From: Nostoc sp. MG11
Lineage (GTDB): Bacteria > Cyanobacteriota > Cyanobacteriia > Cyanobacteriales > Nostocaceae
Assembly (NCBI RefSeq): GCF_014904695.1
Contig: NZ_JACXXN010000013.1
Location: 62,001-126,000 of the forward strand
Direction of reading: 5' to 3'
Length of the DNA stretch: 64,000 nucleotides
The translations under genes and the position numbers were made by a program. This document shows, piece after piece, positions 8,689-36,615 of this stretch. The first letter of the stretch is position 1, and each line of letters starts with the position of its first letter. Below the pieces are notes generated by a model, which was not told the origin of the DNA, made no database searches, and saw nothing but the letters and a program-made list of their open reading frames with translations.

Positions 8689-8753
8689 AAGACTAATTCG
8701 TAATTAAGAAAGTCGGGTATATGCTGTTTTTGTAGCCAATACCTAATATCCTT

Positions 8754-9140
8754 TCAATTTTTAATGGCTAGTTCAATTAAATCTTCAATTTTCTTGATAT
8801 TTGGATCGCCTGCTAAGTAACCAATACCACGATGCAAATGTAAGCGGAATTGGGTGGCGAGGGTTTCTTTGTCCGTGGGGTAGCCGTCATTGTGACAGCG
8901 TTGCTTGAGGGCGAGGAGGAGAATATCAGACATTTCGCCGCCAAAGACGCGCCAAGTCATTTCGACGTTGCTATCTTGGGGAATGGTTACGGGGGAGGGT
9001 GTGGTTGGTTCTGCTAGGGAACGACAAAATGCCCAACGGCATAAGATATTCCATTGGTCGATTTTGGTACTGCGTTTAAGTTTGGTAAGTTGGTCTTTGG
9101 CTGTTTGGGAAAGTTTTATTCTTTCGATTGGCGATTCCAT
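8754..9140 (-). CDS. dndE: DNA sulfur modification protein DndE
   Basis: A 128-residue DndE, the small DNA-binding member of the DndCDE complex that installs phosphorothioate linkages in the DNA backbone. The C-terminal signature DKETLATQFRLHLHRGIGYL is characteristic. The N-terminal 'IERIKLSQTAKDQLTKLKRSTKI.QWNILCRWAFCRSL' matches the usual start. Length is normal for the family. Unusually, a toxin-antitoxin pair separates it from dndD, starting 30 bases upstream. It is followed by the Dnd-associated methyltransferase. Confidence 0.92.
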   Translation of the reverse strand: MESPIERIKLSQTAKDQLTKLKRSTKIDQWNILCRWAFCRSLAEPTTPSPVTIPQDSNVEMTWRVFGGEMSDILLLALKQRCHNDGYPTDKETLATQFRLHLHRGIGYLAGDPNIKKIEDLIELAIKN

Positions 9141-9170
9141 AATCTTCCTAAAAATTAAGGTAGTTTTTAC

Positions 9171-9518
9171 TCATAAACCCAAACAGTAGCGAACCGCAGT
9201 TTCAACTTCAAGCATCTTAGAGTCAGAAATCTTGCCAGATGGATCAGCAGGAAAGCGATTTGGATCTAAGGAACGAATTTGAAAATATAAAAACACCGTT
9301 TCTATAAGCAATCTACTATCACTTGGAAAGACTCGTATATTAGTTGGATAATCGTGCTTAATATTTGTTCCTTTCGTCTCGATAACCACAGTCACAACCA
9401 AAGGTAATTCCTTGACAGCGTTTATGAATAATACTAAAACTGGTCTTTTTCCTGCCTGCTCTCGACCCAATACTGGATTAAGATTGACAAAATAAATTTG
9501 TCCTCTCTCGATGCTCAC
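9171..9518 (-). CDS. MazF/PemK-type toxin, probable endoribonuclease
   Basis: A 115-residue MazF/PemK fold protein, with the family opening IERGQIYFVNLNPVLGREQAGKRPVLVL and the RPVLV strand. I choose the GTG at 9518: it overlaps the antitoxin stop as GTGA, the usual coupling in such operons, and it begins right at the conserved domain. A start further upstream (9551) would add residues with no family match. MazF toxins cleave mRNA and are blocked by the neighbouring antitoxin. The pair sits inside the dnd operon between dndD and dndE, on the same strand. Confidence 0.8.
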   Translation of the reverse strand: MSIERGQIYFVNLNPVLGREQAGKRPVLVLFINAVKELPLVVTVVIETKGTNIKHDYPTNIRVFPSDSRLLIETVFLYFQIRSLDPNRFPADPSGKISDSKMLEVETAVRYCLGL

Positions 9519-9766
9519 AAGTTTTCTAAACCATCCATTTCTGTAACGCAAAAATCATTATTGATAGAGGTAATTTCTTTCTGTATATCTAAATAGCTAG
9601 CCATTGCAAATAGTTGTTCATTTATATATTTAACATCAGTGAATTTATTTGATATTTGCTTTCTTTCTTGCACCTGTTTTGCAATACATTCTAATAGCCA
9701 TTCTAATTCTTCTAATGACAAAACACGTAGGTCATGCTCTATTTTTATTAAATGTGGTGAGTTCAT
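9515..9766 (-). CDS. Antitoxin partner of the MazF-type toxin
   Basis: An 83-residue protein starting at the ATG at 9766, which has a strong ribosome-binding site (AAGGAGATC) seven bases or so upstream. An in-frame upstream ATG at 9784 lies inside that region and is less likely. The protein is helical with an acidic C-terminal half and no clear DNA-binding motif (HDLRVLSLEELEWLLECIAKQV). I name it antitoxin from position: it overlaps the toxin by 4 bases and precedes it. Its DNA is more AT-rich than that of the flanking dnd genes, which fits later insertion of the pair. Confidence 0.7.
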   Translation of the reverse strand: MNSPHLIKIEHDLRVLSLEELEWLLECIAKQVQERKQISNKFTDVKYINEQLFAMASYLDIQKEITSINNDFCVTEMDGLENL

Positions 9767-9882
9767 AATTGATCTCCTTTCCAAAGGTCGTTAGATATAT
9801 TGTAAAGATATAGGCTTCAAAAAATTGCGTAGACGCATAGCGGCTTGTCGTTAGACATCGCCCAATTTTTTAAAAATATGTA

Positions 9883-11868
9883 CTACCAAAAATATCCTGG
9901 TTTAATGGTTGTTTGGCGAGTAGTAGAATCGTATTTGAGGAGATATTCACGCGCGATCGCTTCATTTTCTCGCAATGTTTCAACTTCTTTTTTACCGATT
10001 TCGGTGTCGGTGGAAAGTAAGATTACTTGGTGGCTAGCGGATGGAAAGTAGCGTTCAACTAAGTTATTGCGATGGGAGGAGTCTAGTCTACCGAGAGGCG
10101 TATCGATTGCTACTGGTAGGCGGTGGCCGGAGACTTTTGCTAGTCCCCATAAGAAGGCGATCGCGAGTAGTTGTTTTTCGCCGGCGGAGAGGCGATGTTT
10201 CGGGACTGGTTTACCATTGAAATCGTAAAGCGAAAGGCTGAAAGTATTGGTATCAATAGCGATGCGATGTACTAAGTCTGATTTGTGGAGGAGATAAAGG
10301 AAACAATTTTTAACTTCTTCCTCTAATTTATTGAGCTTTCTCAAGGTTAGTTTTTCACGAAAAATCCTGAGTGTATTTTGAACCTTAGCCGCAGAGGTAA
10401 TAATATGTTCGTTATTTTTATGTTTGATATTTTCTACAGTATATTCACTTAATTCTTTTTTGGATTTGGCAATAATAGTTTCTAATTCAGCTAAACGTCG
10501 GCGGATTGTTTCGTAATTTGCTTTAGCTTCAACAACTTGATTTTGTGCTGCTTCTAGTGCCTGACGCAGCTTTGCATAATCTTCTGGTTCTGCGGCTGTC
10601 TGTATTTGTCTTTCCAGACTATGAATTTCTTCTTCTTTATTTTTGAGAATAGTCAATTTTTCTTTTGTAGAAAGTTGAGAATTTTGCAAGTGATAGATGA
10701 GATTATCTAGCTGACTTAAAGTTTCGTCATCAGCTAATAACCAAGGTACTTTCATTTGGAAAGTTTTTGCATATAAGGTATTTATATCTTGAATTAGAAA
10801 AGATTGAATTTTTTCTAGTTCTGTCGGGGTGATATCTACTTGAGTAAGCCAAGTGAGTAAACGCTGATCTCGCTCACTTAACACATCTTTTGAAATTTGG
10901 ATTTGTTGATAACGAAATTCTTTTTCTCCCTGCGTTTGCACCTGAGTAAGTAAATTGGAAATTAATGCTAAAGGTAAAACATCAGCCGCTAACTCAGACA
11001 TCGATTGACGCACTTGTTCAACCTCCGCAGATTTTTCTTCCTTTTTTAGTTCTAATTGATTTCGTTCTGCCGCAATTTTACCCCCATCATAAATAAATTT
11101 ATCAAAAGCTTCGCGCTGCTGAATTTCTAATTTTTCTAGCTGATTTTTCAGAGTTTTTAATGCTTCTGTTGTTGTTTGATAATCTTCTTGCTGCTGAGTT
11201 AACTTGGTTTCAATTTCCTCTATGTTTGCTAAATCTTTACTAGTACCAATTTCTTTAAGTTTACGGTTAACTAAAATATCCAAGTCAACTGCTAAACGAT
11301 CTGCTAACTCTAGACCTAAAAGTCCGCGAATGGCTTCAACTACAACTGGTGGTGGTGTTTCCTGTTCAGCTAGTTCTTTGACCTGTTCACCATCAAATAG
11401 AAATAAATTAGAAATTCCTAACGGCAAAAGATTTTCTATGTATTCATCCCAGATATTAACTAAAGCATCAGGCCATGTATCACTATCACCTAAAATACCT
11501 AATGTATCCTTACCGTCTTTAGGATTTTTTGTCCAACTACGCACAATACGGTACTTTATTGGCTTATCATTTTCGATATGTTCAAAAAGTAGTTCAATCC
11601 GGGTGTCTGCAATTGGATCTATCTTGCTGTTAACACATTGGTTAAGAAAATCGCTATAACTTAAATTACCACGAGTAGAACATTGGGCGCGTTGTCCATA
11701 AAGGGCGAGACGAATAGCATCCATTAGGGTAGTTTTTCCACCGCCATTCATACCACCTAATAGGATAATTGGATGCGAGTTTTCTTCATCAATTTTTGGG
11801 TTAAGATTGATTACCTGTTTACCACTGTAGGGGCCAAAGTTTTGTAATACGAGTTCTAGAAATATCAT
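9883..11868 (-). CDS. dndD: DNA sulfur modification protein DndD (SMC/RecN-like ATPase)
   Basis: A 661-residue ABC/SMC-type ATPase of the DndCDE phosphorothioation complex. The N-terminus has Walker A GMNGGGKTT (39-47). Two coiled-coil arms (about 200-280 and 400-480) flank a hinge. The C-terminal part has the ABC signature LSAGEKQLLAIAF and Walker B LPVAIDTPLGRLD. The family block NLFLFDGEQVKELAEQETPP is typical of DndD. No CxxC zinc hook is present. It follows dndC, separated by 126 bases that hold an inverted repeat. DndD ATPase activity is thought to be linked to DNA opening during sulfur insertion (family knowledge). Confidence 0.93.
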   Translation of the reverse strand: MIFLELVLQNFGPYSGKQVINLNPKIDEENSHPIILLGGMNGGGKTTLMDAIRLALYGQRAQCSTRGNLSYSDFLNQCVNSKIDPIADTRIELLFEHIENDKPIKYRIVRSWTKNPKDGKDTLGILGDSDTWPDALVNIWDEYIENLLPLGISNLFLFDGEQVKELAEQETPPPVVVEAIRGLLGLELADRLAVDLDILVNRKLKEIGTSKDLANIEEIETKLTQQQEDYQTTTEALKTLKNQLEKLEIQQREAFDKFIYDGGKIAAERNQLELKKEEKSAEVEQVRQSMSELAADVLPLALISNLLTQVQTQGEKEFRYQQIQISKDVLSERDQRLLTWLTQVDITPTELEKIQSFLIQDINTLYAKTFQMKVPWLLADDETLSQLDNLIYHLQNSQLSTKEKLTILKNKEEEIHSLERQIQTAAEPEDYAKLRQALEAAQNQVVEAKANYETIRRRLAELETIIAKSKKELSEYTVENIKHKNNEHIITSAAKVQNTLRIFREKLTLRKLNKLEEEVKNCFLYLLHKSDLVHRIAIDTNTFSLSLYDFNGKPVPKHRLSAGEKQLLAIAFLWGLAKVSGHRLPVAIDTPLGRLDSSHRNNLVERYFPSASHQVILLSTDTEIGKKEVETLRENEAIAREYLLKYDSTTRQTTIKPGYFW

Positions 11869-11952
11869 TGATTTTTAAGATTATTAATCCAGCGGCGGCT
11901 GAAGAGTTTATCAGCCTGTATTTAGAAAACTCTACAGAGGATCGCGATGTCT

Positions 11953-11985
11953 AGATCCCCGACTTCTTAAAGAAGTTGGGGATCT
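11953..11985. repeat. Inverted repeat between dndC and dndD
   Basis: A near-perfect hairpin with 15-base arms (AGATCCCCGACTTCT and its complement with one G/T mismatch) and a loop of about 3 bases. It lies ten bases after the dndC stop, in the gap before dndD. It resembles a dispersed Nostocales palindrome. It could act as an attenuator or RNA-processing site that lowers dndD expression relative to dndC. A poly-T tract does not directly follow on the minus strand, so a classical terminator is doubtful. Confidence 0.7.
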
Positions 11986-11994
11986 AACTTTTTA

Positions 11995-13698
11995 CTATGG
12001 CGTTGTTTCCTTATTTTTAAATTTCATACTCGCCCAAGTTACCTGTTCATCATTTTCACTTTCATCTTCATCCACTTCATCCGTTGCTGCAACATCGCCC
12101 AAAGTCATCTGCTTGACTTTTGCAACATCACCTTGACTAACTGCCTCACTTAATTCGCGTTTCAAACGAGCATTTTTAATAGCGTCTTCTGGAGAACGGG
12201 AACTCGTATTAAAACATTTTTCTAGGGTTTCGTATATTCCCACGCGACGAGTTTTTTTGCGATACTGGCGTTCTGTGTCTAGCAATTTTGCCATGAGTTC
12301 CAAGTGCATCGCGTCACCTTCACAGATTTCTTCTAAAACTATCCATTCATCACGACCTAGTAGGCTATAGTCAGCACCAGGACGGGGGTCTTGAAATTCT
12401 TCACCTGTCACTTCTTGATAAATGCGGGGTAAACTATCATCAAATTCATGTTTGTCTTCAAGCCAGATACGGCGAATTTCACTTAATTCTTCTAGAGTAA
12501 TTAAAGTGATATCGCGCATATTTTCTGGTGCTGTACGACGGATTTGTGTCTGCGCTTCTAATAATCGTCTTAACCAATGTTCTCGCCAATATTTGGTATA
12601 AGGGCCATGAATTGGTTCAACTGAAATTTCACCTTCTACATTGCGCTCAAAAAGTTGAACTTCGCCCCAGATGCGGCGGAAGTCTCTTTTATTGCGGTCA
12701 TCTCTATTATCTAATTCATTGCGGATATCTAATAGAGGCTGCATCCATTCTTTCTCTTCATCATTTTGAATCATTGCCTCCATTGATTTATCCTTACTAA
12801 CAATTGTGCAAACCCAACACCCAAATCGAGAATCACCACAGCTAGCAGTAGAAGTATCAACAACTAGTGGACATTCATTATCTGCTGTAGCACCTCTATA
12901 CATGGTGAATAAATCTTTATTGCTATAGCCCCAAGGGTTTTGCTGCTGATTTAGGTAAATCCAAACTTCATCAGTACGCCAATCTTCTATGGGGCTGTAA
13001 ATTAATGAATTAGGCAAGCTTGGACTATGGTAAAGCAGAGATGTAGGTAAACTTGAATCAGAAACGAGGCGATCTTTTAGGCTCCCTACTTGATGTTTTT
13101 CCATTGAGATAGCACGTTTGATACTTTCAGCCTTACGCGTACCTAAAATAAGAATAACTTCCCCATTTACTCTAACCACATCACGTATAAAACGGTTAGA
13201 AGGATGAATTTTCAGACGGTCTGTACACCAACGAAATTTTCCTCGCGGCGTTGGATAACCTTTACCAATCAAGCTTACCCAGAATGTCTCTTTGATTTCT
13301 GGTTGTAATAAGTGGGGTTCAATGGGCATGTTCTGTTCTTTAGCAGCAGTCCTCATGCTTTCTAAGGATTTGCGTACCCAAACAGAGACTACAGGGTTTT
13401 CTACCAATGTGTCAGTTGTAATAATATGAATAGTCTTTTTTCGCTTTTCAATAGGTAGTGCTGCGATCGCATTCCAGATAAGCTGTAAAGTAGCAGTACT
13501 ATCTTTGCCGCCCGAATAGCCTACTACCCAAGGTATTTGATCCAAACTGTACAATTCTTGAATCTCGGTGGTGAGAGCTTGGATATATTCCACTAAATCT
13601 GTTACAGTACGTGTCTGCTGAACTTTATTTTCTGGTTTTTGTGCTGTAGTCATTTCTCCTTCTCTCTGAAAACATGGGTGTAACTTTATCTCTTCCAT
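11995..13698 (-). CDS. dndC: DNA sulfur modification protein DndC (PAPS reductase-like, iron-sulfur)
   Basis: A 567-residue DndC, the PP-loop ATP pyrophosphatase that activates the DNA phosphate for sulfur transfer. The PP-loop SGGKDST is at 62-68. Four cysteines at 276, 287, 294 and 297 are spaced 11, 7 and 3, the pattern of the DndC 4Fe-4S cluster. The 'SPIEDWRTDEVWIYL' segment is shared with PAPS reductases. Start is uncertain: the ATG at 13698 has no clear ribosome site, while the ATG at 13653 has GGAG only two bases away. It is first of the minus-strand dnd operon and divergent from dndB. DndA/IscS, its sulfur donor, is not in the window. Confidence 0.94.
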   Translation of the reverse strand: MEEIKLHPCFQREGEMTTAQKPENKVQQTRTVTDLVEYIQALTTEIQELYSLDQIPWVVGYSGGKDSTATLQLIWNAIAALPIEKRKKTIHIITTDTLVENPVVSVWVRKSLESMRTAAKEQNMPIEPHLLQPEIKETFWVSLIGKGYPTPRGKFRWCTDRLKIHPSNRFIRDVVRVNGEVILILGTRKAESIKRAISMEKHQVGSLKDRLVSDSSLPTSLLYHSPSLPNSLIYSPIEDWRTDEVWIYLNQQQNPWGYSNKDLFTMYRGATADNECPLVVDTSTASCGDSRFGCWVCTIVSKDKSMEAMIQNDEEKEWMQPLLDIRNELDNRDDRNKRDFRRIWGEVQLFERNVEGEISVEPIHGPYTKYWREHWLRRLLEAQTQIRRTAPENMRDITLITLEELSEIRRIWLEDKHEFDDSLPRIYQEVTGEEFQDPRPGADYSLLGRDEWIVLEEICEGDAMHLELMAKLLDTERQYRKKTRRVGIYETLEKCFNTSSRSPEDAIKNARLKRELSEAVSQGDVAKVKQMTLGDVAATDEVDEDESENDEQVTWASMKFKNKETTP

Positions 13699-13757
13699 CT
13701 CAGTACATGGAATTCGAGGCTACACAGGGACAACGCACGTACTCATGTCCTAACAAA

Positions 13758-13769
13758 GTTTTTAAAAAC
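13758..13769. promoter_or_regulatory. Perfect 12-bp palindrome in the dndC/dndB divergent promoter region
   Basis: GTTTTTAAAAAC lies about midway in the 139 bases between the divergent dndC and dndB starts. A symmetrical site in a shared promoter region is a candidate operator. DndB is known to repress dnd genes in some bacteria, but the published DndB site pattern (TACG-N10-CGTA) is not present here, and an AT-rich palindrome this short can arise by chance. Confidence 0.3.
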
Positions 13770-13837
13770 CTTACTACTAATACCTAATTTTTTGGACAAT
13801 TAAACTACATAATTACTAGTTCGTTTTTAAAATTAAC

Positions 13838-15436
13838 ATGAAAGATAGTGCATCCGACCCAACTGCTGACATCGCTAGAGAGTACCTGGAACGGGAAAAC
13901 AAGGAAAAACAAGTACTCTTTTTACTACTAGAGAAGTTTTTAGGGAGAAAAGATCAGATTCTAGTTCAAAAAACTGAGATGGGTGGTACTGTGGCTTATG
14001 TTAGCTCTGTTACTCTGGAATGGTTTGCGGGTCGTGTTCACTTCGCCTCTGGCTTACCTCTGTTTCAGAAAAAGTACAATCCTGAGACTGATAATGTCGA
14101 GATTGACGCAGATAGTATTGATGAAATTCAGCAACGTCCCCTTGATTGGTCACGTCAAGCACCGCTAGTTCAGTATTTAGCGGCTCGACACAACCATAAG
14201 TTTCCGCCAGTGCTGGTAGTAATTAATCAACCGTGGGTAGATAATCCCAAAGCTGCTGAGTGGGATGGCGAAGGACGCGCCACCAAGTCTACGACTGATT
14301 TCATACCTCTAGATAAAGACGGTAAGGTAGGTCTGCTAAATATTTCTGAGGATGATGTAACCATTTATGCACTAGATGGTCAACACCGATTAATGGGGGT
14401 TCAGGGATTGATGGAGTTAATCAAAACTCGTAAACTCCAGCGCTATAAAAAAGATAAAGGTGCTGATGACAGTTTTATTACAGTCAATGATTTGATAGAA
14501 AAGTACCAAGTAGATCTTGCTTACTTGCAAAATTTACCCAAGGAAAAAATTGGTATTGAGTTTATCTGTGCAGTTGCGCCTGGGGAAACTCGTATCCAAG
14601 CGAGGCGGAGGGTGAGATCAATTTTTGTTCATGTCAACCTGATGGCTGCACCCTTGACTAAAGGTCAGTTAACACAGTTGAATGAGGATGATGGTTTTGC
14701 GATCGCTGCTAGAAAAATTGCAGTTACACATCCACTGTTAGAACAACAACAAGAACGCAACCCCCGCGTTAATTGGAATAGTGCAACAGTAGCTTCTAAT
14801 TCTACAGTTTTGACTACGTTGCAAGCTCTACAAGATATGTCTGAGCGATATTTGGGTCAAAAGTTCCCTCACTGGAAACCCTTGGAGAAAGGTCTAATTC
14901 CCATGCGTCCAGAGGATGAAGAACTTGAGCAGGGGATTGAGGAATTAACAAAGCTATTTGATTATTTGGCTAATCTTCCTAGTTATAAGATTTTGGAACA
15001 CGAAGATACGCCTGCTTTGCGGCGGTTCAGCTTTGAGAAGGATGGAGGTGAAGGAAATATGCTTTTCCGTCCGGTTGCTCAAGTTGCATTAGCGCAAGCT
15101 TTAGGAATTTTAGTGTTTAAAAAAGGCTTTTCTCTTGCAGATATCTTTAAGAAACTGCGGAAGTTTGACCAGCAAGGTGGTTTTAGTGGTATGGAGTATC
15201 CACAATCTATTTGGTATGGGGTTTTGTATGACCCAAATAAAAAGCGAGTACAGGTTGCTGGACGAGATTTGGCAACGAAGTTATTAGTTTACATTCTGGG
15301 TGGAATTCAGGAACAGATGGAACGTGCTGAACTTCGTAAGGCTTTGGCTGATGCTAGGACTATGGAAGATAAAACTATAGGTTTTGATGGCAAGTTTGTT
15401 GAACCGAAAGCGGTAGGACTTCCACCTATCCTGTAA
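13838..15436 (+). CDS. dndB: DNA sulfur modification protein DndB / DGQHR-domain protein
   Basis: A 532-residue protein with the diagnostic DGQHR motif at 180-184, inside VTIYALDGQHRLMGVQG. Family members linked to dnd loci are called DndB and act as regulators that limit phosphorothioation or repress dnd transcription. This one is longer than the usual DndB of roughly 350-380 residues; the extra length is in the C-terminal half (about 330-532). It diverges from dndC, so one intergenic region could serve both. It converges with the broken HNH gene, whose frame runs into its 3' end. Confidence 0.88.
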   Translation: MKDSASDPTADIAREYLERENKEKQVLFLLLEKFLGRKDQILVQKTEMGGTVAYVSSVTLEWFAGRVHFASGLPLFQKKYNPETDNVEIDADSIDEIQQRPLDWSRQAPLVQYLAARHNHKFPPVLVVINQPWVDNPKAAEWDGEGRATKSTTDFIPLDKDGKVGLLNISEDDVTIYALDGQHRLMGVQGLMELIKTRKLQRYKKDKGADDSFITVNDLIEKYQVDLAYLQNLPKEKIGIEFICAVAPGETRIQARRRVRSIFVHVNLMAAPLTKGQLTQLNEDDGFAIAARKIAVTHPLLEQQQERNPRVNWNSATVASNSTVLTTLQALQDMSERYLGQKFPHWKPLEKGLIPMRPEDEELEQGIEELTKLFDYLANLPSYKILEHEDTPALRRFSFEKDGGEGNMLFRPVAQVALAQALGILVFKKGFSLADIFKKLRKFDQQGGFSGMEYPQSIWYGVLYDPNKKRVQVAGRDLATKLLVYILGGIQEQMERAELRKALADARTMEDKTIGFDGKFVEPKAVGLPPIL

Positions 15437-15439
15437 TTA

Positions 15440-16200
15440 TGCTTGAAATAAAATATATTTTGGCGATGCCAGTGTAGCGCTTCCAGTTGTGGAAAGTGTT
15501 GCTCTGTATTTGGTAGAAGTATTGTTTCACCATGAAAATCTTTCATAGGTTTACTATGATGAGATGCTTCTTCCAAATCATTACTAACTATAATTTTGTA
15601 TTGTTCATCTACAGTGAACCAACCCCTATCAAATGCCCAATGATGATTTTTGCAAAGAGCAATTCCATTATGAATTTTATTATCATAAAACTGTGAAAAT
15701 GGCTTGATGTGTGCGCCATCAACAATATTTTGATTTATTTTTTTAGTTACTTTTAGTCCACAAAAAGCACATCTGTAATCATAAATATGTACAACTGCTT
15801 TCCTAAAGAAAGCATTTCTAGTTACTGCTCGTTTGAAGCTCCACCTTGGATTAGTCTCTAAAATTGATGTTTCAATTGATTTTTCTATCTCTACCGCGTT
15901 ATCTTGAAAAGTTTAATTTATTTGTAAAATAGCTTCTAAATCATTTTCATTATCAGAAAAGAAAGCTGCCACAAGTGCATCAATTGTAAGATGGAGAACT
16001 GATTACATTCCAATACCTCTCAAATGTTTGAATTAATTCATCTGAAACTGGAATTTCATTAGTTGTAATGACACCTCGCGTAATCAAATCAATTACAGAT
16101 AAAAGTAATATTGGTTTATATTGAGCGTTACCACGCTTCTGGATACTACTCACATTTAATTCAGCAAAGCGTTGACAATAATATACTATATTTTTTATAT
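15440..16200 (-). pseudogene. Broken HNH endonuclease resembling phosphorothioate-dependent (SBD-HNH, McrA-like) restriction enzymes
   Basis: Read on the minus strand. A first piece (about 16200-15980) reads YCQRFAELNVSSIQKRGNAQ, then YKPILLLSVIDLITRG and IPVSDELIQTFERYW, before a TGA at 15982-15980. A second piece in another frame (IDALVAAFFSDNENDLEAIL) meets an in-frame TAA at 15915-15913. The same frame then continues into a full HNH domain: YRCAFCG, DGAHIKPF, HNGIALCKNHH, WAFDRGWF, ending near LHWHRQNIF. The first piece resembles the sulfur-binding N-terminal domain of phosphorothioate-dependent HNH enzymes ('APHKPLLLL..DLI...YW'). About 60 residues seem deleted between pieces. No ATG or GTG start is visible, and the C-terminal frame runs on into antisense dndB. 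Family name is from memory. Confidence 0.72.
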
Positions 16201-16229
16201 TTAATAATTTAATTAAGCAAGCAAAAAAA

Positions 16230-16700
16230 TCAATTTAAGAATTTACTGAGGTTAAATTCTTCTTCTAGCTGTTCTTTTGTTCCTCTGTCAGAAATCAGAA
16301 CTAATAGAAGTCGCTCTGAGTAATCAACAGAACCCCGTAACTCGTTTTGTAAAATTTCGAGTCCTGCATTAGCATACTCTTCAAATATTTGAGTACGTTT
16401 ATCTTCATCTTGTTCTTCTCTAGATGAGAGTATGTTGATGTCTTGAGTTTCGTTGATTCCTAATAATTTAATGATTAGGTCATATCCCAATGAAGCAAAA
16501 TTTTCTTGTGGAATTGGAGATGGTTCTCTTTTTGTAGTTTCCCCCAAAGGAACGCGCTTTTTATATTTAACGCCCAATGCTGCTGCAAACACCATTACTT
16601 CTACATAAGTCTGAAAAGGCCCAGTTGTGTCTTTTGATGCAACTAGAGTTTTCACCAACTCAGCCTTATCTTTAGCAACCCTGATTCTGTTTGCAGCCAT
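16230..16700 (-). CDS. Dnd system-associated protein 4
   Basis: A 156-residue soluble protein that I recognise as the family found with dnd clusters ('dnd system-associated protein 4'). Typical features are the start IRVAKDKAELVKTL, the block 'PFQTYVEVMVFAAALGVKYKKRVPL', and the acidic C-terminal part ending EEEFNLSKFLN. It carries no catalytic motif I can see. It lies immediately upstream of the broken HNH gene on the same strand, suggesting that both formed a restriction-side operon. Its biochemical role is unknown. Confidence 0.75.
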   Translation of the reverse strand: MAANRIRVAKDKAELVKTLVASKDTTGPFQTYVEVMVFAAALGVKYKKRVPLGETTKREPSPIPQENFASLGYDLIIKLLGINETQDINILSSREEQDEDKRTQIFEEYANAGLEILQNELRGSVDYSERLLLVLISDRGTKEQLEEEFNLSKFLN

Positions 16701-17032
16701 TGTTTTAATATCTATATTGTTGCCATAATAACCGAAAGGTAAGGGCGATGCCTAGGAGCAAGCCACTCATGTCTACGTACGTATTTTGCATTATTTTAAA
16801 CTAATTACAAAGCGATCGCAAACTTCCATTACCCCAACAAACTCATGATTTTATGGGTATGACTGATAAGATACGCGAGGTTATACTGGTAGCCTCGCAA
16901 CAGTTCAGTTTTATCTAGCCAAGACTAAAAAAGTATAATAAAATACATATTCAAGTTTATTCAATTAAGTCATGCGTAGTTTCTCGTAATCATTACTTCA
17001 GTAAAAGAGTTTTACCAACAAGGGTTTAGTGT
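16701..17032. other. Divergent intergenic region without a gene
   Basis: These 332 bases separate dnd-associated protein 4 (minus) from the membrane-anchored unknown (plus). They hold one HIP1 octamer, a perfect 10-bp palindrome TACGTACGTA at 16774-16783, and just before it ACTCATGTC, a 9-mer that also occurs in the dndC/dndB promoter region (13741). I see no open reading frame or RNA gene. Confidence 0.5.
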
Positions 17033-17614
17033 ATGAGTGAAAATGACAAGCAAGGTAATTTCTGGACTACGTTACCTGGAATAATTACAGCATTAACTGG
17101 TATAATAACGGCTACAGGGGGATTGATTGCATCTCTTCATGCGACTGGTATATTTTCTAGCCAAAATACCCAATCTTCTTCTGCAAATCCACCACAGATT
17201 CAAACTAATACTAATACTTGTCTTCAACAGGCAAATAATGCAACTTTCGAGGTTAAAGCTTATAACCAAAATGGTTGTAAATTTAAAATTTTAAATAATA
17301 AGAATAACGTTAAAGCACACTTTCATGCTAGTGGAGAATGGGCCGTGGGTAAAGCGGCTGATGGATTTGAATATGTCACAGTGGAAGGTTATACAAGAGA
17401 GATTGACGAATCTACCAAAAAGCTATTCAAATGTCCAGATCAAAAACTAGGAGCATTAATATATATACGTAAAGGAAAATGTTATCACGCAGGTGAAGAT
17501 ACAGTTTTACCATTAGAAGCAGAAGAGGAAATTAATTTTTATATTAACGATCATGCTGAGGGTTATAATGATAACCGAGGAATTGTGAAAGTTACCTGGG
17601 ATATAGCCAACTAA
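17033..17614 (+). CDS. Membrane-anchored protein of unknown function in the dnd island
   Basis: A 193-residue protein. One hydrophobic segment at about 13-35 (GIITALTGIITATGGLIASL) should anchor it with the C-terminal domain outside. A Ser/Asn/Thr-rich linker leads to a domain of about 120 residues with four cysteines (C63, C81 and two later, in LFKCPDQ and KGKCYHAG) that could form disulfides. I do not recognise the family. It is the only plus-strand gene between dnd-associated protein 4 and the Uma2/ATPase operon, with a MITE-like element just downstream. Confidence 0.6.
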   Translation: MSENDKQGNFWTTLPGIITALTGIITATGGLIASLHATGIFSSQNTQSSSANPPQIQTNTNTCLQQANNATFEVKAYNQNGCKFKILNNKNNVKAHFHASGEWAVGKAADGFEYVTVEGYTREIDESTKKLFKCPDQKLGALIYIRKGKCYHAGEDTVLPLEAEEEINFYINDHAEGYNDNRGIVKVTWDIAN

Positions 17615-17686
17615 AATATAGTTTTGTACTTGAAGGCAAGCAAAAAGCGATCGCACTTATAACCACATTACTTTATATTAATTATC

Positions 17687-17909
17687 GGCGTTGCTGAATC
17701 CAGGTATGAATTTATCTCACGCAGAGACGCAGCGGAAAGTCTGTAGCTTGCTTCCCGCAGGGTACGCCGGCTTCCGGCGAACAGACGCCACTTGCTTCAA
17801 GCCGGGGAACCCGTCCAACGCAGTGGCTCAACTTTTCAAGACAGAGGCGCAGAGAGCAAGAGTTTTAGATGTTAAGTTTTTAAATTTCATACTTCAATTC
17901 AGCAATGCC
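17687..17909. mobile_element. MITE-like element, copy 1
   Basis: A 223-bp element with terminal inverted repeats GGCGTTGCTGAAT / ATTCAGCAATGCC (12 of 13 match). It is flanked by a perfect 8-bp direct repeat, TAATTATC, which looks like a target duplication. It shares its ends and long internal blocks (for example CTTTTCAAGACAGAGGCGCA and the last 60 or so bases) with copy 2 at 27045-27272. It has no transposase frame. The centre differs between copies and carries GC-rich palindromes, as if other small repeats were nested within. Confidence 0.85.
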
Positions 17910-17926
17910 TAATTATCAAACGATCG

Positions 17927-18478
17927 CTAAACAAATAAATTATCCACTAACATAGTCCATCCTGGTACTGCGGGTTCAGCTTCCGCTACCTCACCACGGC
18001 GATAAATTTGGGGTTGTTCGGGGTTACTGGCGCGATATACTCTGATAACTTCCTCTTTGACTACATCCACATCCCAAACGACCAAAGTACCCACCGCAAA
18101 ATAATCACGGCGTTTGCTAGCCATATCTTTCTCTGCTGTCTCACTGTAATCATTTTCACTTCGCACCTCAGCAGCAAACACAGGCGCACCATTAAGGAAC
18201 TTTCCACCTGTAGGTTTGCCAGTGTAAAATGCGGCATCAGGACTTAAAGAACGGCGGTTAGGAAGATTGATAAGAAAACCAACATTATCAGGTAAAGCAT
18301 AACCACTTTTTGTCAGACGTTCGTAATCGCGCAGACTGGCATAAATTTCACCTCCTGCACGTCCTGGTAAAAATCCAGTTGGAGACATCAGCAGCAGTTC
18401 TCCATTGACAATCTCCGCTTTACAATTTTCAGGGACGCTGTATAAATCTTCAATAGTTGCTTCACTCTTTATATTCAT
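17927..18478 (-). CDS. Uma2-family protein (PD-(D/E)XK-like)
   Basis: A Uma2 (formerly DUF820) protein of 183 residues, starting at the ATG at 18478 (MNIKSEATIEDLYSVPEN); the longer frame to 18568 adds residues from repeat-like DNA and is unlikely. The fold's putative nuclease residues are in SPDAAF, FAAEVRSEND and a following lysine (AEKDMASKRR). Uma2 proteins are greatly expanded in cyanobacteria and their substrates are unknown. It follows another Uma2 gene by 93 bases on the same strand and may belong to the ATPase operon upstream. Confidence 0.8.
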   Translation of the reverse strand: MNIKSEATIEDLYSVPENCKAEIVNGELLLMSPTGFLPGRAGGEIYASLRDYERLTKSGYALPDNVGFLINLPNRRSLSPDAAFYTGKPTGGKFLNGAPVFAAEVRSENDYSETAEKDMASKRRDYFAVGTLVVWDVDVVKEEVIRVYRASNPEQPQIYRRGEVAEAEPAVPGWTMLVDNLFV

Positions 18479-18571
18479 AAAACACCTGATATGAATTGGA
18501 GATAATCTCAATTTAACAATCTCTCCTCCTCTCTGCGTCCTTGACGCCTCTGCGGTTAGTTTCACCAAAAC

Positions 18572-19141
18572 TTAGGTTGGAAACTGAACATCCTCATAAA
18601 CTAAAGAAATAGGAAAGTGAAAATCAACGCTAGTTAAATGAACTTCATCCCCTTCTTCGTAAGGATGCAACTCCCAGAGTCCTTTATCATTTAGCCGAAA
18701 GCAATCTAAACTAATTTTTTCAGCATCAATGAGAACATATTCTTGTAAAGTCTGGATACGGCGATACTGGATAAATTTACGACCTCTGTCGTAAGCTTCT
18801 GTACTAGGAGATAGAACTTCGACAATTAGACAAGGATACTGAATAAATTGAATGGCTTGTCTGTCTCGTTCATCACAACTCACCACAACATCTGGGTAGT
18901 GAAATGGCCCGTTCTCAGTTACTCCTACTTTTGCATCTGCCATGAAGGCGCGATATGGGCCTCCCCGGAGGTGACTTTTTAATGCTGAAGCCAAGTTTAA
19001 GGCAATGGTAGTATGGGGAATTGTCCCCCCAGTCATGGCGAAGACTTCACCATTGATATATTCGTATTTAATATTTTGGTGTTCTTCCCACTCTAGATAT
19101 TGTTGGGGAGACATATAATTTTGGTCTCGACTTGCAATCAT
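18572..19141 (-). CDS. Uma2-family protein (PD-(D/E)XK-like)
   Basis: A 189-residue Uma2 protein with the usual opening YMSPQQYLEWEEHQNIKYEYINGEVFAMTGG and putative active-site residues in YPDVVVSCDE, LIVEVLSPSTEAYDRGRKF and the following Lys/Arg. It begins only 3 bases after the stop of the SMC-like ATPase, so the two are almost certainly co-transcribed and probably translationally coupled. That tight link to an SMC-like ATPase is what sets it apart from the many scattered Uma2 genes of cyanobacteria. Confidence 0.83.
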   Translation of the reverse strand: MIASRDQNYMSPQQYLEWEEHQNIKYEYINGEVFAMTGGTIPHTTIALNLASALKSHLRGGPYRAFMADAKVGVTENGPFHYPDVVVSCDERDRQAIQFIQYPCLIVEVLSPSTEAYDRGRKFIQYRRIQTLQEYVLIDAEKISLDCFRLNDKGLWELHPYEEGDEVHLTSVDFHFPISLVYEDVQFPT

Positions 19142-19144
19142 AGA

Positions 19145-21217
19145 TTACCTACCACGTTCAACTTGAATAATCTCGGTATATTCAAACTCGTTGGGACTTT
19201 GCCTAACTAAAGGATATCTTTCTCCACCTAACTCAATATAATCCTGCTCACAATCTGGTTTGGATGAATAATACGTAAGTACATATTCTCTACCGATTCT
19301 ATCTGTTATTTCTGCTTCTACTTCACCCCGCCACTGAGTTTTAGTTACTAAAACTATTAACTGATTTGCTAATTGGGGAATTGTTCTAGCAATGTGTCGC
19401 CGCGAACTTTCATCCAAACTACCGAAAGGTGAATCCATGACAATTGGGAAAGTGCTACTATCGGGAATCATCATCATTTTCCGTTTCTCACTCCATTCCC
19501 TTACTTTGTCAATAATGCTGGCGATAAAGGATAAACTGAGAATTTGATTTTCACCAGTGGATGCTGCGATCGGTGCTTCCATACCTGTGGTATTTTCTAT
19601 TAATGTTAGTTCATATTTATCGCTAATTTTCGGAATATATGGAGTAACAGAAATTTCTGCGAATATCTCTTGTACCCGCTTTTCTAGTTGCAGTCGGAAT
19701 TGTTTTTCTTGACGATTCCTGACTTCTGTTAACCTTTCAATTGCATCTTGGGTGGCATTAATGCGTCGCTGTGCCAACGATTGCTTTTCTTCATTTAGCT
19801 TTTGCTTAGCTATTTGTTTTACCAAGGTATCAATTTCTGTTGTGAAGTGAGTAATTTGCTGCTGATTTGCACCTTGTTCTCTATTTAATTCATCGATTTT
19901 CCCTTCAATCTTATCTAAGCGCTTTTGTAAGCTGCTAATTTCTTCGTTAGCATCTTTTCGCAACCTTTCTTGAATGCTATCTAATTCGCTTTCAATTTGA
20001 GATATTGTTTGTCTTAACTGATTAATTCTGCTTTGTTCTTTGTCAACTTCTTCCCAAAACACTATTGCTTGCTTATCAATTTCATCTACTTGAGCGCTCA
20101 TGCGAATTGTAGTTTCTTCTACCGCTGAGGAACCTGCTCTATTCAACCAAATTTCAACATTGGTATGGGAATGATTCCCTATCTGTAATTCAGTACCACA
20201 AATACAGCGTTTAGAATTAAGTAAGTCATTGACAAATTCTCGCGAAATTCCCGATGTTAACTTACCTCGCTGCTTTAATTCATTGATAATTTCTCGAAAC
20301 TGTGCTGTAGCTTCTGATAGCAATACGGTGTAGCCGCGTGAAGAGATAACTTTTTTTAGGGCTTCCCTAGTTTGTCGCAGAGCATTTTGGTTTGCGATTT
20401 TCTGGTTTTCTAACTCTTGACGTCTTTCTTGCAGTTCTTGGGCGGCGCTGAGTTCTCGTAAATGGTTATTTGTCTCTTTCTTAAAAGTTTGTTGATATTC
20501 TAACTCTTGTTGAATTTCTGTTTGTCGTTTGGCGATGCGCTCAATCTCTTGTTCTATCTTTTCTTGTTCTTTCAAAAGTTGTTTAATTTCTGAATCACCA
20601 ATAGATTTTAACTCATTCTCTAAACTTCTTTTAGCTTCTCCCAAATGTCTGATTGAACGATTGATTACCTCGACGCCTAAGAAAATCTTGGTAGCCTCAG
20701 CAATTTCAGCTTTTTTGTCTGTTCTAACTATCTCTTCAATCCGCTCGCCATCAAAGAAAAAATATTGGTGTAAACTAGCAGGTAATATTTGTCCAATTAT
20801 TTCTTCTGGTTGCTGGAGTGGAAAATACCACCTACCATCATCACCAGCGACTTGCATTAATAATTCTGTTTTGCTCAAGTCGAAGTCGGTTTTGTTTTTA
20901 TAAACTCGACACTGGCGTTTGACGTTGTAGCGTTTACCTTCATGTTCCCAAGTAATTTCTACCCAACATTCTACAGATTGTCCAGTTTTAGCTTCAGCGA
21001 TCGCACGCTTATTAACTAGCTGCTCAGTTGATGCAAAGGCTGCACTAAATTTATCATATAATACCCACGTAAATGCATTTAGCAGACTAGTTTTTCCTGC
21101 TCCATTATTGCCGTGAATAATTGTTGTGTTAAAAGTGTCTCCACCTGCAAGGATTATTTCTGGTGTTTTACCATAAAAGGAGCGAAAGTTGCACAGCTTG
21201 ATTGAAGTCAGCTTCAT
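19145..21217 (-). CDS. SMC/DndD-like ATPase
   Basis: A 690-residue ABC/SMC-type ATPase with the same plan as DndD but clearly distinct. Walker A is GNNGAGKTS (36-44). A DndD-like block QYFFFDGERIEEIV is at 151-164. Long coiled coils flank a hinge with C338-I-C340, a possible metal or zinc-hook half-site. The ABC signature is STGENQILSLSF (553-564) and Walker B is PIVMDSPFGSLD (591-602). DNA end or repair-type activity is inferred. A 57-residue ORF overlaps its start by 4 bases, and a Uma2 gene starts 3 bases after its stop. It may be the motor of a restriction or defence module. Confidence 0.85.
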   Translation of the reverse strand: MKLTSIKLCNFRSFYGKTPEIILAGGDTFNTTIIHGNNGAGKTSLLNAFTWVLYDKFSAAFASTEQLVNKRAIAEAKTGQSVECWVEITWEHEGKRYNVKRQCRVYKNKTDFDLSKTELLMQVAGDDGRWYFPLQQPEEIIGQILPASLHQYFFFDGERIEEIVRTDKKAEIAEATKIFLGVEVINRSIRHLGEAKRSLENELKSIGDSEIKQLLKEQEKIEQEIERIAKRQTEIQQELEYQQTFKKETNNHLRELSAAQELQERRQELENQKIANQNALRQTREALKKVISSRGYTVLLSEATAQFREIINELKQRGKLTSGISREFVNDLLNSKRCICGTELQIGNHSHTNVEIWLNRAGSSAVEETTIRMSAQVDEIDKQAIVFWEEVDKEQSRINQLRQTISQIESELDSIQERLRKDANEEISSLQKRLDKIEGKIDELNREQGANQQQITHFTTEIDTLVKQIAKQKLNEEKQSLAQRRINATQDAIERLTEVRNRQEKQFRLQLEKRVQEIFAEISVTPYIPKISDKYELTLIENTTGMEAPIAASTGENQILSLSFIASIIDKVREWSEKRKMMMIPDSSTFPIVMDSPFGSLDESSRRHIARTIPQLANQLIVLVTKTQWRGEVEAEITDRIGREYVLTYYSSKPDCEQDYIELGGERYPLVRQSPNEFEYTEIIQVERGR

Positions 21218-21387
21218 CGCACCTCTTCCTTCACAATTGCCAAAATATCATCATTAATATGGCTGTTACTTTTCTTATCTAGCCTGCTCTTTTCTAGATG
21301 CCATACCCGCTCTATAATTTGTCGTACTTCTGGCGAGGCGCTGGTTATTGGCTCCTGAACATCATCGATATTTGGTTCTTCTAACAT
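21214..21387 (-). CDS. Small ORF translationally coupled to the SMC-like ATPase
   Basis: A 57-residue ORF reading MLEEPNIDDVQEPITSAS at its start and ending KEEVR. Its stop overlaps the ATPase start as ATGA, a classic coupling arrangement. It is highly charged, without membrane segment or cysteine, and predicted helical in the middle (PEVRQIIERVWHLEKSRLD). I do not recognise a family. The overlap and intact frame argue that it is a real, dedicated partner of the ATPase, perhaps a small subunit. Confidence 0.6.
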   Translation of the reverse strand: MLEEPNIDDVQEPITSASPEVRQIIERVWHLEKSRLDKKSNSHINDDILAIVKEEVR

Positions 21388-21739
21388 TTGGTATTTTAAA
21401 ATATATTTTTTCTATATTTTAACCGTCTCTAATGCTGCGATCGCCTCTCTAAAGCTATTATTAGTAGTATCTTTATTTTCAGTAAGTTCTATCTTTAAAT
21501 TTATAATTTTTTGGAAAAAAGTACTTTATTTTTGAAGAGTTTTCTGTTATTATTTAAATTAATAAGATTTACTTTATAATGGAAATTCAGTAAATTTAAA
21601 AGTTTTGCTTACACCCCATTATAAAAACCTTAATATTATCTTCCCATATTAAGTACTTCTTTTCTCCAAATCCCAAAAAATTTTACAAAAGAACACAACT
21701 ATAAACGTGTAAAACAGCAAATCAATCCGTAATACCTCA
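21388..21739. other. Intergenic region upstream of the ATPase operon
   Basis: These 352 AT-rich bases lie between the helicase stop and the small ORF start, both on the minus strand. One HIP1-like site is present. Runs of A and T are frequent. I see no gene, hairpin terminator or recognisable promoter I would defend, but the ATPase operon promoter is expected here. Confidence 0.45.
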
Positions 21740-23224
21740 TCAAATATCTAACAATCCATATCGCTTTTGTAAATCCAACAACTTCATTCTCGCTTCGCCA
21801 GCATTGTCAGCTAAATCAGCGAATTCGACAAAGCGACGCAATTCCTTTTTCAACAGATTACGCTCAACTTCTATAGTTTCCCTGTCTAAGTCTGGTGGCA
21901 AAACAATCATGTCAAATATAGTGGCGCGTTGTTTAGTAGGATGAGGACGCAAAACACGCCCCCGCCGCTGGATAAACTGGCGAGGATTACCAGAACTTGA
22001 TAAAATCACCGCAGTTTGAATTGCCGGAATATCGACACCTTCATCTAAACAGCGAATTGCTACCAAACCTTGCAATTCACCACTTTCAAATTGATGCCGC
22101 AAAACTTCACGTTCTTGTAATGATGTTTGTGCCGTATAGGTGCTTACCTTGTACCCTAGTTCCACTCCGAGAATTTTGGCGACAGCTTTAAGTTGTCGCA
22201 GAGATGAACGTTGTCCCGTATCTTGTGAACCATCACTGCAATAGAAAAGAGTGTGAGTAGTTTCGCGGCGAATTGTCATTAAATCCCGCAAAGCATTTAA
22301 TTTATTTTCTGCCGCACCAATCAACCTTGCTCGTTGCATCAACAACGGCTTTAAATCTTCATGGTTTTCAAAGTCTGCCGATTCACCATTTTCCCGTTCC
22401 CGATATAATAGCGATCGCCCAATTCTTTTAGTTAATTTTAAATAAGCAATACTTTCTGCCTCAGTTAATTCTACCAAAATTGGATAATACTGATAATGCA
22501 CTAAAGCACCTTGAGCGATCGCATCTCGCAAAGTAAACTCTGGCTGGAGAACCGGGCCAAAATAAGCAAACAAAGATTGCGTACCATATTCATCAAAATA
22601 CCTCTCTGGTGTCGCAGATAAAGCCAGCCGCAACCCTACACGGCGCGGTAAACTTTCTTCTAGCTTGGGTGCGCCTAAATTATGCGCTTCGTCTCCAATA
22701 ATTAAAGTCTTGGCGGGAAAATATTTGAGTTGAGATTGAAATCCTTCTCCAATTAAAGTGGAGTTGGTAGTAATCACCGTCACGAAACCTTGGGAACCAG
22801 AACGCAAATTGTAAATCTGCGTAGAAAGTTGACTTTGCCAAGCGCGTAAATTCTCGAAAGCTAAAATAGGCTGCAAATTAAATTTTTCACATTCTCGCGC
22901 CCATTGGGTGACAAGATGGCGGTAGGGACAGACTACCAACAAGACTTGTAGGTTAATTTGTTGGTATAATTCACAGGCGATCGCTAATGCTGTAATTGTT
23001 TTACCACTACCAGTTGCCATTTTTAGCGTTCCTCTACCATTGTTAGCAAACCAGCTAGTGATAGCTTGTCGCTGATACTGCCGCAATTGCACAGATAAAG
23101 GTATTTTCGGGAATCCTGGTAGTGGTTGTTGAGTCTGATAACTGCCCTTACTTTCCCTTACAAATGGTAATTTGAGTTTGAAAGTGGGCAGTTGTTGCTG
23201 CACTGGATTTGACGTCAGATACAT
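21740..23224 (-). CDS. DNA phosphorothioation system restriction enzyme-like helicase (DEAD/DEAH, SF2)
   Basis: A 494-residue superfamily 2 helicase. Motif I is MATGSGKT, motif II is GDEAHNLG (a DEAH box), motif III is LALSATPER, and motif VI is QFIQRRGRVLRPH. The fold resembles the translocase part of type III Res subunits. I recognise it as the family named 'DNA phosphorothioation system restriction enzyme', which occurs in dnd islands lacking DptFGH. No nuclease domain is evident in its short C-terminal tail, so cleavage may need a partner. It is about 350 bases upstream of the ATPase/Uma2 set on the same strand. Confidence 0.8.
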   Translation of the reverse strand: MYLTSNPVQQQLPTFKLKLPFVRESKGSYQTQQPLPGFPKIPLSVQLRQYQRQAITSWFANNGRGTLKMATGSGKTITALAIACELYQQINLQVLLVVCPYRHLVTQWARECEKFNLQPILAFENLRAWQSQLSTQIYNLRSGSQGFVTVITTNSTLIGEGFQSQLKYFPAKTLIIGDEAHNLGAPKLEESLPRRVGLRLALSATPERYFDEYGTQSLFAYFGPVLQPEFTLRDAIAQGALVHYQYYPILVELTEAESIAYLKLTKRIGRSLLYRERENGESADFENHEDLKPLLMQRARLIGAAENKLNALRDLMTIRRETTHTLFYCSDGSQDTGQRSSLRQLKAVAKILGVELGYKVSTYTAQTSLQEREVLRHQFESGELQGLVAIRCLDEGVDIPAIQTAVILSSSGNPRQFIQRRGRVLRPHPTKQRATIFDMIVLPPDLDRETIEVERNLLKKELRRFVEFADLADNAGEARMKLLDLQKRYGLLDI

Positions 23225-36500: not shown

Positions 36501-36615
36501 CGCCCCGTGTGTAGGAGTAATGGGTAAAAAAGCGATCAGAACCATTATTTGGATCTCGGATAAAAACTACATCCGAATGATAGCCATCTGACGAAGGAAT
36601 CTCAAATAGAGGCAT
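33520..36615 (-). CDS. Large SNF2/HepA-like helicase
   Basis: A 1031-residue superfamily 2 helicase. Motif I is LLIADEVGLGKTIEIGLVLRD, motif II is LIIDECHHCG, motif III is VVLMSATPFR; the second RecA domain has FLVFTEIL, VLVATSAADEGFDFQVANRV and VI-like MQRNGRVARLGQ. This resembles RapA/HepA and other large defence- or repair-type helicases (for example DISARM DrmD). The C-terminal 300 residues are not recognised. It is single, between a kinase remnant and an intact kinase, so no partner gene is obvious. Start ATG is at 36615. Confidence 0.82.
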   Translation of the reverse strand: MPLFEIPSSDGYHSDVVFIRDPNNGSDRFFTHYSYTRGATANINEITDRRGIPSNNFRAWSWYETEFPEIMQRIYNSQEYIPGEGVLGASPIDQDFYVNTIMRLGALEILANIFSGRITANDKDPFPHQLALQQYMKDNGNRVNRLLIADEVGLGKTIEIGLVLRDLLIAKGSFERFRCLYLTKAGLVDDACLKLQSVMKGALTVDGQNQNIVQVVDSFRSYGRNNTSGIQVASIDAARLYVEERDKENLPKGVRPEILIIDECHHCGSSEELNRVERIRLATQTYKAAYQLISGEYWQDSEPPKLVVLMSATPFRSSTQFINLLRLISHQSVFENVFLNDVRENNLVAELKKEDSTAIVIWRQQNNVFSWTGQPLFPRLTVDRIKLETTPEYLDIMREIRATVQKICLDNGESFGGFATRQLEMRLTSSSIAGAIWLFRWCIRHKTWKTQAIYRQDTSESTESLRKLIIQISQRIAEFDLGSSNKYADVSFPSDSFHFKLASLAGGGKVDDIYRFSEILHKKDDEGRGFNAIPDEILELTNLATRLLNFSTSTQSNGVENAKLNWLKRMLEEYPDSRFLVFTEILQTCEIITKALPRISDKLTGSMGNSEREKVVRRFRGQEKPVIRVLVATSAADEGFDFQVANRVVHWDLSSSPAVLMQRNGRVARLGQVSDVVAYYLMMTETHEARREEILHEKFNQLGIADEQLRLRILGSLDEDEVEKAVEENQPVIIDELLRKANEQNQRMNDNLGKLQKDLTAKAVIDRTMLAQRLEYWVKLGLPLRDQAEFKLNFDTVEWQRPIFAVDQATISETAQAVVATIKRKDENWKVHKITFDPEFNLFGGGSDTYSLAGLRPWVRDERNGRDGDIWKHRPLRRSDSIGDLACSLARQRQADFTIVSGTSLFEVIPSLKGSRYLLFATHPMLEVEEHLSHSGLSYLTFYAFGDDLSSPIQSNGYSADCVNQVIQLLEREATQPNLSVLDHSLLEQARKSGKRISEWLSNSRILPKLGDQKYFLPIPVALVAVTYPDF

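Follow-up and report, generated by a model that had tools for sequence, protein, structure and literature searches.

The 64,000-nucleotide stretch of Nostoc sp. MG11 analysed here (contig NZ_JACXXN010000013.1; called the window, with all coordinates given as its positions) contains, in an island of dnd genes for DNA phosphorothioation (PT), a run of four minus-strand open reading frames (ORFs) at 17927-21387: an ORF of 57 amino acids (aa), an SMC-like ATPase and two proteins of the Uma2 family. An earlier note, made from the sequence alone, had taken this run for a candidate new defence operon. The locus raises two questions: what this operon is, and whether the Uma2 genes belong to it or are chance neighbours. 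The layout described in that note was reproduced, including the 4-base overlap of the small ORF with the ATPase ORF (21214-21217) and the start of the first Uma2 gene 3 bases past the ATPase stop codon, with the second Uma2 start more likely at 18478. The gene set is almost certainly PbeABCD with two Uma2 genes placed between C and D. The PbeABCD operon is already known, and what is new here is the coupling of Uma2 to it.

The identification as PbeABCD rests on profile matches, a conserved small gene and the published A-B-C-D order. PbeC (19145-21217, minus strand; 690 aa), a CxC-type (Rad50/DndD-like) ABC ATPase, matched the PADLOC PbeC profile with 1184 bits, spanning 1-649, and remained under the cut-off of the DndD model TIGR03185 (161.9 versus 245.85 bits) and far under that of the SMC model (51.7 versus 729.4 bits). 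PbeA (21740-23224, minus strand; 494 aa), a superfamily 2 (SF2) helicase, scored 665.5 bits against TIGR04095 (cut-off 600) and 545.5 bits against the PADLOC PbeA profile, and it also matches Pfam ResIII and Helicase_C. PbeD (16230-16700, minus strand), annotated as DNA phosphorothioation-associated protein 4, scored 209.1 bits against TIGR04062 (cut-off 74.25). The order of transcription is pbeA, pbeB, pbeC, uma2a, uma2b and pbeD. It is pbeA and pbeD that give the operon away, and both lie outside the span considered in the earlier note, on either side of the genes that it had read as a new defence operon; the small ORF and the ATPase among these are pbeB and pbeC of a published system.

Loci of PbeC homologues were fetched in two sets, 100 higher-scoring ones (at least 61% identity) and the best 80 of 98 named ones, and the removal of 15 with duplicate PbeC from these 180 left 165 distinct loci. 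The CxC zinc-hook motif, which is the defining mark of such ATPases in the description given by PMC10853773, is present in the window PbeC as Cys-Ile-Cys codons at 20198-20206 on the minus strand (residues 338-340, as computed by script, in the coiled-coil region) and recurs in 163 of 165 homologues; the two without it are incomplete frames. A single stop inside pbeC was seen in several genomes (e.g. G309, G235, G246, G312, G197, G191 and G385). A homologue of the 57-aa ORF (21214-21387, minus strand) is present in 163 of the 165 distinct loci; it adjoins pbeC in 161 and overlaps it by exactly 4 bases in 155. The consensus of 141 distinct sequences retains a DVQEPI motif and an IIERV..EK region, and this conservation, together with the frequency of the homologue and the exact overlap, implies that the ORF is a genuine gene, beyond chance. 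The same overlap occurs in Pseudanabaena, Ruegeria and Pontibrevibacter plasmids. The name PbeB is based on position, size and conservation, since no model of NCBIfam, Pfam or PADLOC matched the protein in profile scans; the PADLOC models of PbeB and PbeD did not match even the Ruegeria proteins at an expect value (E) of 10. A search for plasmids with the window DNA as query gave no match.

PbeB and PbeD of the window, with 57 and 156 aa, are close in size to those of Haloterrigena jeotgali, reported by PMC6459918 as 66 and 152 aa. Directly after PbeC, a "DNA phosphorothioation-associated protein 4" is annotated in Ruegeria, Pontibrevibacter and Rhizobium plasmids (three of the seven annotated non-cyanobacterial loci), and a scan placed the Ruegeria protein in the same family (167.5 bits); the other four loci have a hypothetical protein of 142-160 aa at this place. 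Kinship of PbeD to DndE left no sequence signal. A fold search with a PbeD model of low confidence (predicted local distance difference test, pLDDT, 62) gave no significant match, with DndE making up four of the 20 matches, rank 1 among them. PbeD may thus be a DndE-like partner of PbeC, for which the fold is only suggestive.

PbeA is the component in which the cyanobacterial form appears to depart from the described one. The window protein aligned only to positions 239-681 of the 682-position PADLOC profile, i.e. the C-terminal two thirds, and cyanobacterial PbeA measured 403-538 aa in 167 of 167 cases, none exceeding 600 aa. PbeA of five non-cyanobacterial plasmids is longer (676-714 aa) and carries HxK at residues 136-143; PMC6459918 describes a PLD domain ahead of the helicase in H. 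jeotgali PbeA, and an N-terminal PLD/HKD nuclease domain is present in most systems according to the account in PMC10853773. Judged by length and aligned profile positions, cyanobacterial PbeA stops short of this N-terminal nuclease part, and the window set was therefore classed as a PbeABCD variant and not as a standard member. Five cyanobacterial PbeA-like frames of 678-730 aa were also seen, all under the TIGR04095 cut-off.

Both proteins encoded behind pbeC are Uma2 proteins, as the earlier note had it. Uma2a (18572-19141, minus strand; 189 aa), a protein of the PD-(D/E)XK fold, and Uma2b scored 146 and 86.5 bits, respectively, against PF05685 (cut-off 27 bits). The second gene was first called at 17927-18568 from a TTG start (213 aa); because its homologues begin at an ATG 30 codons further in, the extent 17927-18478 on the minus strand (183 aa) is the likelier one.

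Whether these genes are there by chance was decided by counting. In 120 distinct loci with a contiguous pbeC-pbeD interval (the slot), 113 of 182 genes of at least 90 aa in the slot encode Uma2 (118 of 188 when shorter matching pieces are included), compared with 3 of 662 and 5 of 232 genes upstream (8 of 894 together). In other intervals of the same loci, Uma2 accounted for 0 of 109 genes in pbeD-dndB, 0 of 35 in dndB-dndC, 1 of 31 in pbeA-pbeB and 0 of 49 after dndD. The dndC-dndD interval had 10 of 39, all of a further Uma2 type; this subfamily occurs in 10 loci (e.g. L164:17031-17651), in each case codirectional with pbeC. With a wide profile, and with fragments included, 80 of the 120 loci proved to have one or more slot Uma2 genes, whereas a profile built from Uma2a and Uma2b only had found 65 and missed the third and fourth subfamilies. 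The nearest Uma2 is no more than 150 bases from the stop codon of pbeC in 61 of the 80 loci, and in 15 the earliest start open to it, assigned mechanically, overlaps pbeC. Among seven other high-scoring Uma2 genes of the MG11 genome, taken as a control, three are codirectional with the upstream gene and one of these is so within 150 bases.

The slot is shared by four main Uma2 subfamilies at 45% identity: a (56 loci in two taxonomic families), b (26 loci in two families), c (33 loci in nine families, including three loci of the second set, mostly at -50 to +110 bases from the pbeC stop) and d (5 loci in four families). A further single type in L171 and several fragments bring the total to 130 slot copies. 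One protein from each of c, d and the dndC-dndD type was checked against Pfam and recognised as Uma2. The presence of four dissimilar subfamilies in the same interval shows that Uma2 was not acquired there in one inherited insertion. When each gene family was counted once per interval, Uma2 contributed 4 of the 28 slot families and 4 of the 446 upstream ones (p = 6e-4), and among families present in at least two loci, 4 of 15 and 1 of 111, respectively. A class-wide draw of 194 genomes extended the comparison: of the 174 genomes outside the order (Cyanobacteriales), 21 had a full-length or split PbeC, shorter remnants being left out, and in at least 14 of these 21 loci Uma2c lies within 200 bases downstream of pbeC on the same strand. 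The same holds for at least 4 of 16 genomes checked within the order, MG11 itself left out. A Pseudanabaena galeata plasmid shows the arrangement A-B-C-truncated Uma2-nucleotidyltransferase (NTase)-HepT-like-D, with Uma2 overlapping pbeC. In genome G555 (C37:403882-405458), two Uma2c genes are each preceded, at a distance of about 60-70 bases, by a short and weak match to the C-terminal end of pbeC, an arrangement resembling a duplicated unit of pbeC tail and Uma2.

The chance-neighbour alternative, named in the earlier note, was initially favoured on the strength of 94 Uma2 matches in the MG11 genome and of a Uma2 within 500 bases in only 40 of 160 loci. It was dropped after the interval counts and the class-wide test: the enrichment in the slot, the four subfamilies and the class-wide adjacency to pbeC place the coupling of ATPase and Uma2 beyond chance.

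The slot copies also have the features of maintained genes. In an alignment of 120 proteins, comprising slot copies of at least 160 aa and the two window proteins, P, E, K and Y of the predicted active site are kept in 120 of 120 and D in 119 of 120, both window proteins included (P83, D84, E108, K122 and Y126 in Uma2a; D111, E134, K152 and Y156 in Uma2b in the numbering of the 213-aa form). Pairwise ratios of nonsynonymous to synonymous substitution rates (dN/dS; simple counting method, pairs with dS of 0.1-1.5) had medians of 0.137 for Uma2a (30 of 56 sequences), 0.134 for Uma2b (21) and 0.25 for Uma2c (29), compared with 0.102 for PbeC from the Uma2a genomes. These values indicate purifying selection on proteins with intact active-site residues and a predicted nuclease role. 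The Uma2a model (pLDDT 67) produced nine PDB matches with E no higher than 0.001; those with names are Uma2/DUF820 or restriction-endonuclease-like folds, and 6okh is uncharacterised.

It is likely that Uma2 is functionally tied to Pbe in cyanobacteria, and the fuller statement, that cyanobacteria possess their own form of PbeABCD in which Uma2 is a recurrent functional accessory between pbeC and pbeD, is probably correct as a whole. In the mechanism that we propose, DndBCDE would set sulphur marks on host DNA, while PbeC, with its zinc hook, would form a DNA-scanning complex with PbeB and the DndE-like PbeD. PbeA, reduced to an SF2 helicase motor, would travel on unmarked DNA, and Uma2, encoded just after PbeC, would be recruited to cut or nick that DNA, thereby standing in for the PLD/HKD nuclease domain of archaeal PbeA. 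That such a complex forms, that Uma2 is recruited and cuts, and that the whole serves defence are steps that we infer. The idea that Uma2 supplies the nuclease, the simplest reading, derives from the missing N-terminal part of cyanobacterial PbeA. It is plausible at somewhat less than an even chance, held at that level because Uma2 is lacking in one in three contiguous cyanobacterial loci and in all seven annotated non-cyanobacterial ones, two of which, both haloarchaeal, also have a short helicase. More tentative still is a general picture of widespread PT restriction in cyanobacteria, in which PbeA would be a motor without a nuclease, an exchangeable Uma2 behind PbeC the cutting subunit, the four Uma2 types exchanged versions of that subunit, and the large stock of Uma2 genes in a genome (94 matches here) their reservoir.

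Several observations weigh against the proposed tie and the mechanism. Uma2 is absent from 40 of the 120 contiguous loci, occurs in only 6 of 37 loci with no pbeD downstream within the fetched stretch and in none of the seven annotated non-cyanobacterial Pbe loci; it is a dispensable accessory and not a core part of Pbe. Of the association that the earlier note had expected between the ATPase and both its partners, the small-ORF half thus stands (163/165), and the Uma2 half holds only for an accessory (80/120, 6/37 and 0/7). Broken Uma2 copies lie in some slots (e.g. in genome G344), and Uma2c is also found far from pbeC in many genomes. All slot Uma2 genes are codirectional with pbeC, but so are 60 of 69 other slot genes of at least 90 aa; codirection was accordingly weakened as a sign of Uma2 function, and the confidence in the tie was lowered slightly on this ground. 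The enrichment is uncorrected for ancestry, against which the family counts are only a rough guard. With respect to PbeA, the helicases of two haloarchaeal Pbe loci are short (477 and 469 aa) and these loci, both among the seven, have no Uma2, so that a short PbeA does not need Uma2. The motif HxKxxxxD was dropped as a test for an HKD nuclease because all five long PbeA proteins fail it too, and Pfam, which failed to report a PLD domain in Ruegeria PbeA despite its length, does not discriminate either; a separately encoded PLD gene was not searched for.

The alternative that survives best is that the slot is permissive, with abundant Uma2 genes and other small ones carried along in it and having no role in Pbe. 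It accounts for the ample supply of Uma2 in the MG11 genome, for the 24 of 28 slot gene families that are not Uma2 (such as an SLH/DUF3370 gene in 23 loci), for the NTase/HepT-like pair in the Pseudanabaena slot, for the loci with no Uma2 or a broken one, and for the codirection of other slot genes, by which the interval would favour one direction for any gene and because of which we came to regard this account as a little less unlikely than before. The empty neighbouring intervals (0/109 and 0/35, though 10/39 in dndC-dndD), the position of Uma2c, which abuts or overlaps pbeC across the class, the kept active site and the low dN/dS all speak for a functional accessory instead, and we consider mere carriage an unlikely alternative.

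The distribution of PbeC bears on a second alternative, somewhat less probable than the first, in which cyanobacterial PbeABC would be a DNA-maintenance complex and not a defence system, with Uma2 as an attached repair nuclease. Of the 388 genomes of the order that were searched, 342 gave a PbeC match with E no higher than 0.001 (at least seven of them weak only); among the 338 good-quality genomes, 304 did. PbeC is therefore near-core in the order, which is unusual for a defence component and counts against a defence role. argF and lexA each stand beside pbe in 101 of 180 loci, duplicates retained, which indicates an old chromosomal place. A Rad50-like ATPase would suit DNA maintenance, as would the retention of pbeABC where pbeD and dnd lie elsewhere. 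Where the fetched sequence reached far enough, 118 of 159 loci have PbeA no more than 2.5 kb upstream of pbeC, and 109 of 153 have PbeD no more than 3.5 kb downstream. In more distant genomes the operon is often split, given that among 40 PbeA-centred loci PbeC was within reach in 16 and was not found in the fetched stretch in 24, which counts against the main reading.

On the other side stands the close association with PT. dndC was found in 78 of 80 genomes taken from those with a fetched PbeC locus and in 50 of another 53 with a PbeC match, that is in 128 of 133, compared with 6 of 27 with no PbeC or a weak match (Fisher p = 2e-16, uncorrected for ancestry; the 27 comprised 20 of the 46 genomes with no PbeC match, the remainder having a weak match only). 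PbeD was present in 80 of 80 genomes, at times distant from pbeC, and of the second 80 genomes, 54 have a PbeA that scores above the cut-off. This co-occurrence and the residence in a dnd island fit PT-based discrimination, and the homologous set is a proven antiviral system in an archaeon as reported by PMC6459918. The conserved order and dnd linkage that the earlier note asked about hold for the small ORF and the ATPase, and Uma2 takes part in only some loci.

Less probable again is a third alternative, in which the Pbe complex would restrain the slot Uma2 proteins, these being suicide effectors freed on its disturbance and not PT-discriminating restriction enzymes. Toxin-like genes (NTase/HepT-like) in the same slot and a MazF-like gene between dndD and dndE would agree with it, and PMC3506569 put forward the idea that immunity loci are coupled to suicide nucleases. 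Many loci, however, keep pbeABC with no Uma2 at all, and Uma2 genes with no Pbe neighbour are common in the same genomes, unlike what would be expected of a protein that is lethal unless guarded. The reading of the small ORF, the SMC-like ATPase and Uma2 as a new operon unrelated to known ones, for which the tight gene spacing could be cited, has practically no probability left, being refuted by the family matches of PbeC, PbeA and PbeD and by the PbeABCD order.

Apart from Uma2, the slot of the window contains a 193-aa ORF on the plus strand (17033-17614; from the ORF list), of unknown family, with relatives in three other slot loci, all on the opposite strand to pbeC. The SLH-domain/DUF3370 protein found in the slot of 23 loci is exemplified by L197:11179-13077.

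The dnd island that the earlier note had recognised was borne out by profile matches, with dndC, dndD and dndE all within the window. After pbeD follow a plus-strand gene for a DndB-like DGQHR protein (13838-15436; TIGR03187, 197.6 bits; PF14072, 44.5 bits) and then, all on the minus strand, the DndC sulfurtransferase (11995-13698; TIGR03183, 726 bits), a canonical DndD (9883-11868; TIGR03185, 748.9 bits), a canonical DndE (8754-9140; TIGR03184, 143.7 bits) and a phosphorothioation-associated putative methyltransferase (7231-8688; TIGR04096, 709.7 bits). Between pbeD and dndB lies a decayed minus-strand HNH gene of the phosphorothioated-DNA endonuclease type (approximately 15430-16160). Members of this HNH family (median 313 aa) occupy the same interval in 39 of 98 loci, the window copy being broken; the one member scanned matched PF13391 and scored 118 bits against NF045808, under the cut-off of 180. 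A gene for a MazF/ChpB-like toxin lies between dndD and dndE (9171-9551, minus strand), with matches under the curated cut-offs, and, farther away, a 1031-aa SNF2-type helicase (33520-36615, minus strand) shows distant likeness to DrmD of DISARM and to DpdE, also under the cut-offs.

PMC10853773 argues from the PLD domain of PbeA that the system cuts DNA, whereas PMC6459918 reports that no cleavage was seen. Near dnd genes, PMC10853773 lists HKD, HNH, several restriction endonuclease families (e.g. NERD), URI, HEPN and PIN; a word search of its main text found Uma2 or DUF820 nowhere, although they may be hidden among its restriction endonucleases (the supplement lay outside the search). Full-text literature searches returned nothing joining Uma2 or DUF820 with phosphorothioation. 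PMC8569181 describes PT restriction systems, their parts defined there as DndFGH, as absent in Cyanobacteria, and it reports two major DndD clades in Cyanobacteriales, one of which we suspect to be PbeC. The wide presence of Pbe in the order bears on that claim of absent restriction parts. Uma2 is a nuclease-like family with very many members in the MG11 genome (94 matches), and its recurrent place beside pbeC makes it possible to test its function.

Compared with known systems, PbeC is a Rad50-like ABC ATPase of similar length to DndD but falls under the DndD cut-off, and the island has its own canonical DndD. The DndFGH restriction module likewise operates beside DndBCDE; no DndFGH was found among the scanned genes of 7231-23224, the rest of the window and genome not having been searched for it. 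The Uma2 proteins share family, fold and active-site residues with the Uma2/DUF820 nucleases (PF05685; 1wdj, 3ot2, 6okh and 9y1l) and differ from other members in occupying a recurrent operon position beside PbeC. The closest relatives of the whole set are PbeABCD of H. jeotgali (PMC6459918) and the CxC-ABC-ATPase/DndE system of PMC10853773, which, as described there, share with it the order A-B-C-D, the helicase, the small protein, the CxC ATPase, the PbeD-type protein and the link to dnd. In contrast to those descriptions, PbeB, presented there as rapidly evolving, is well conserved here and the set is near-core in the order, PbeA lacks the N-terminal PLD/HKD part, and Uma2 genes stand between C and D.

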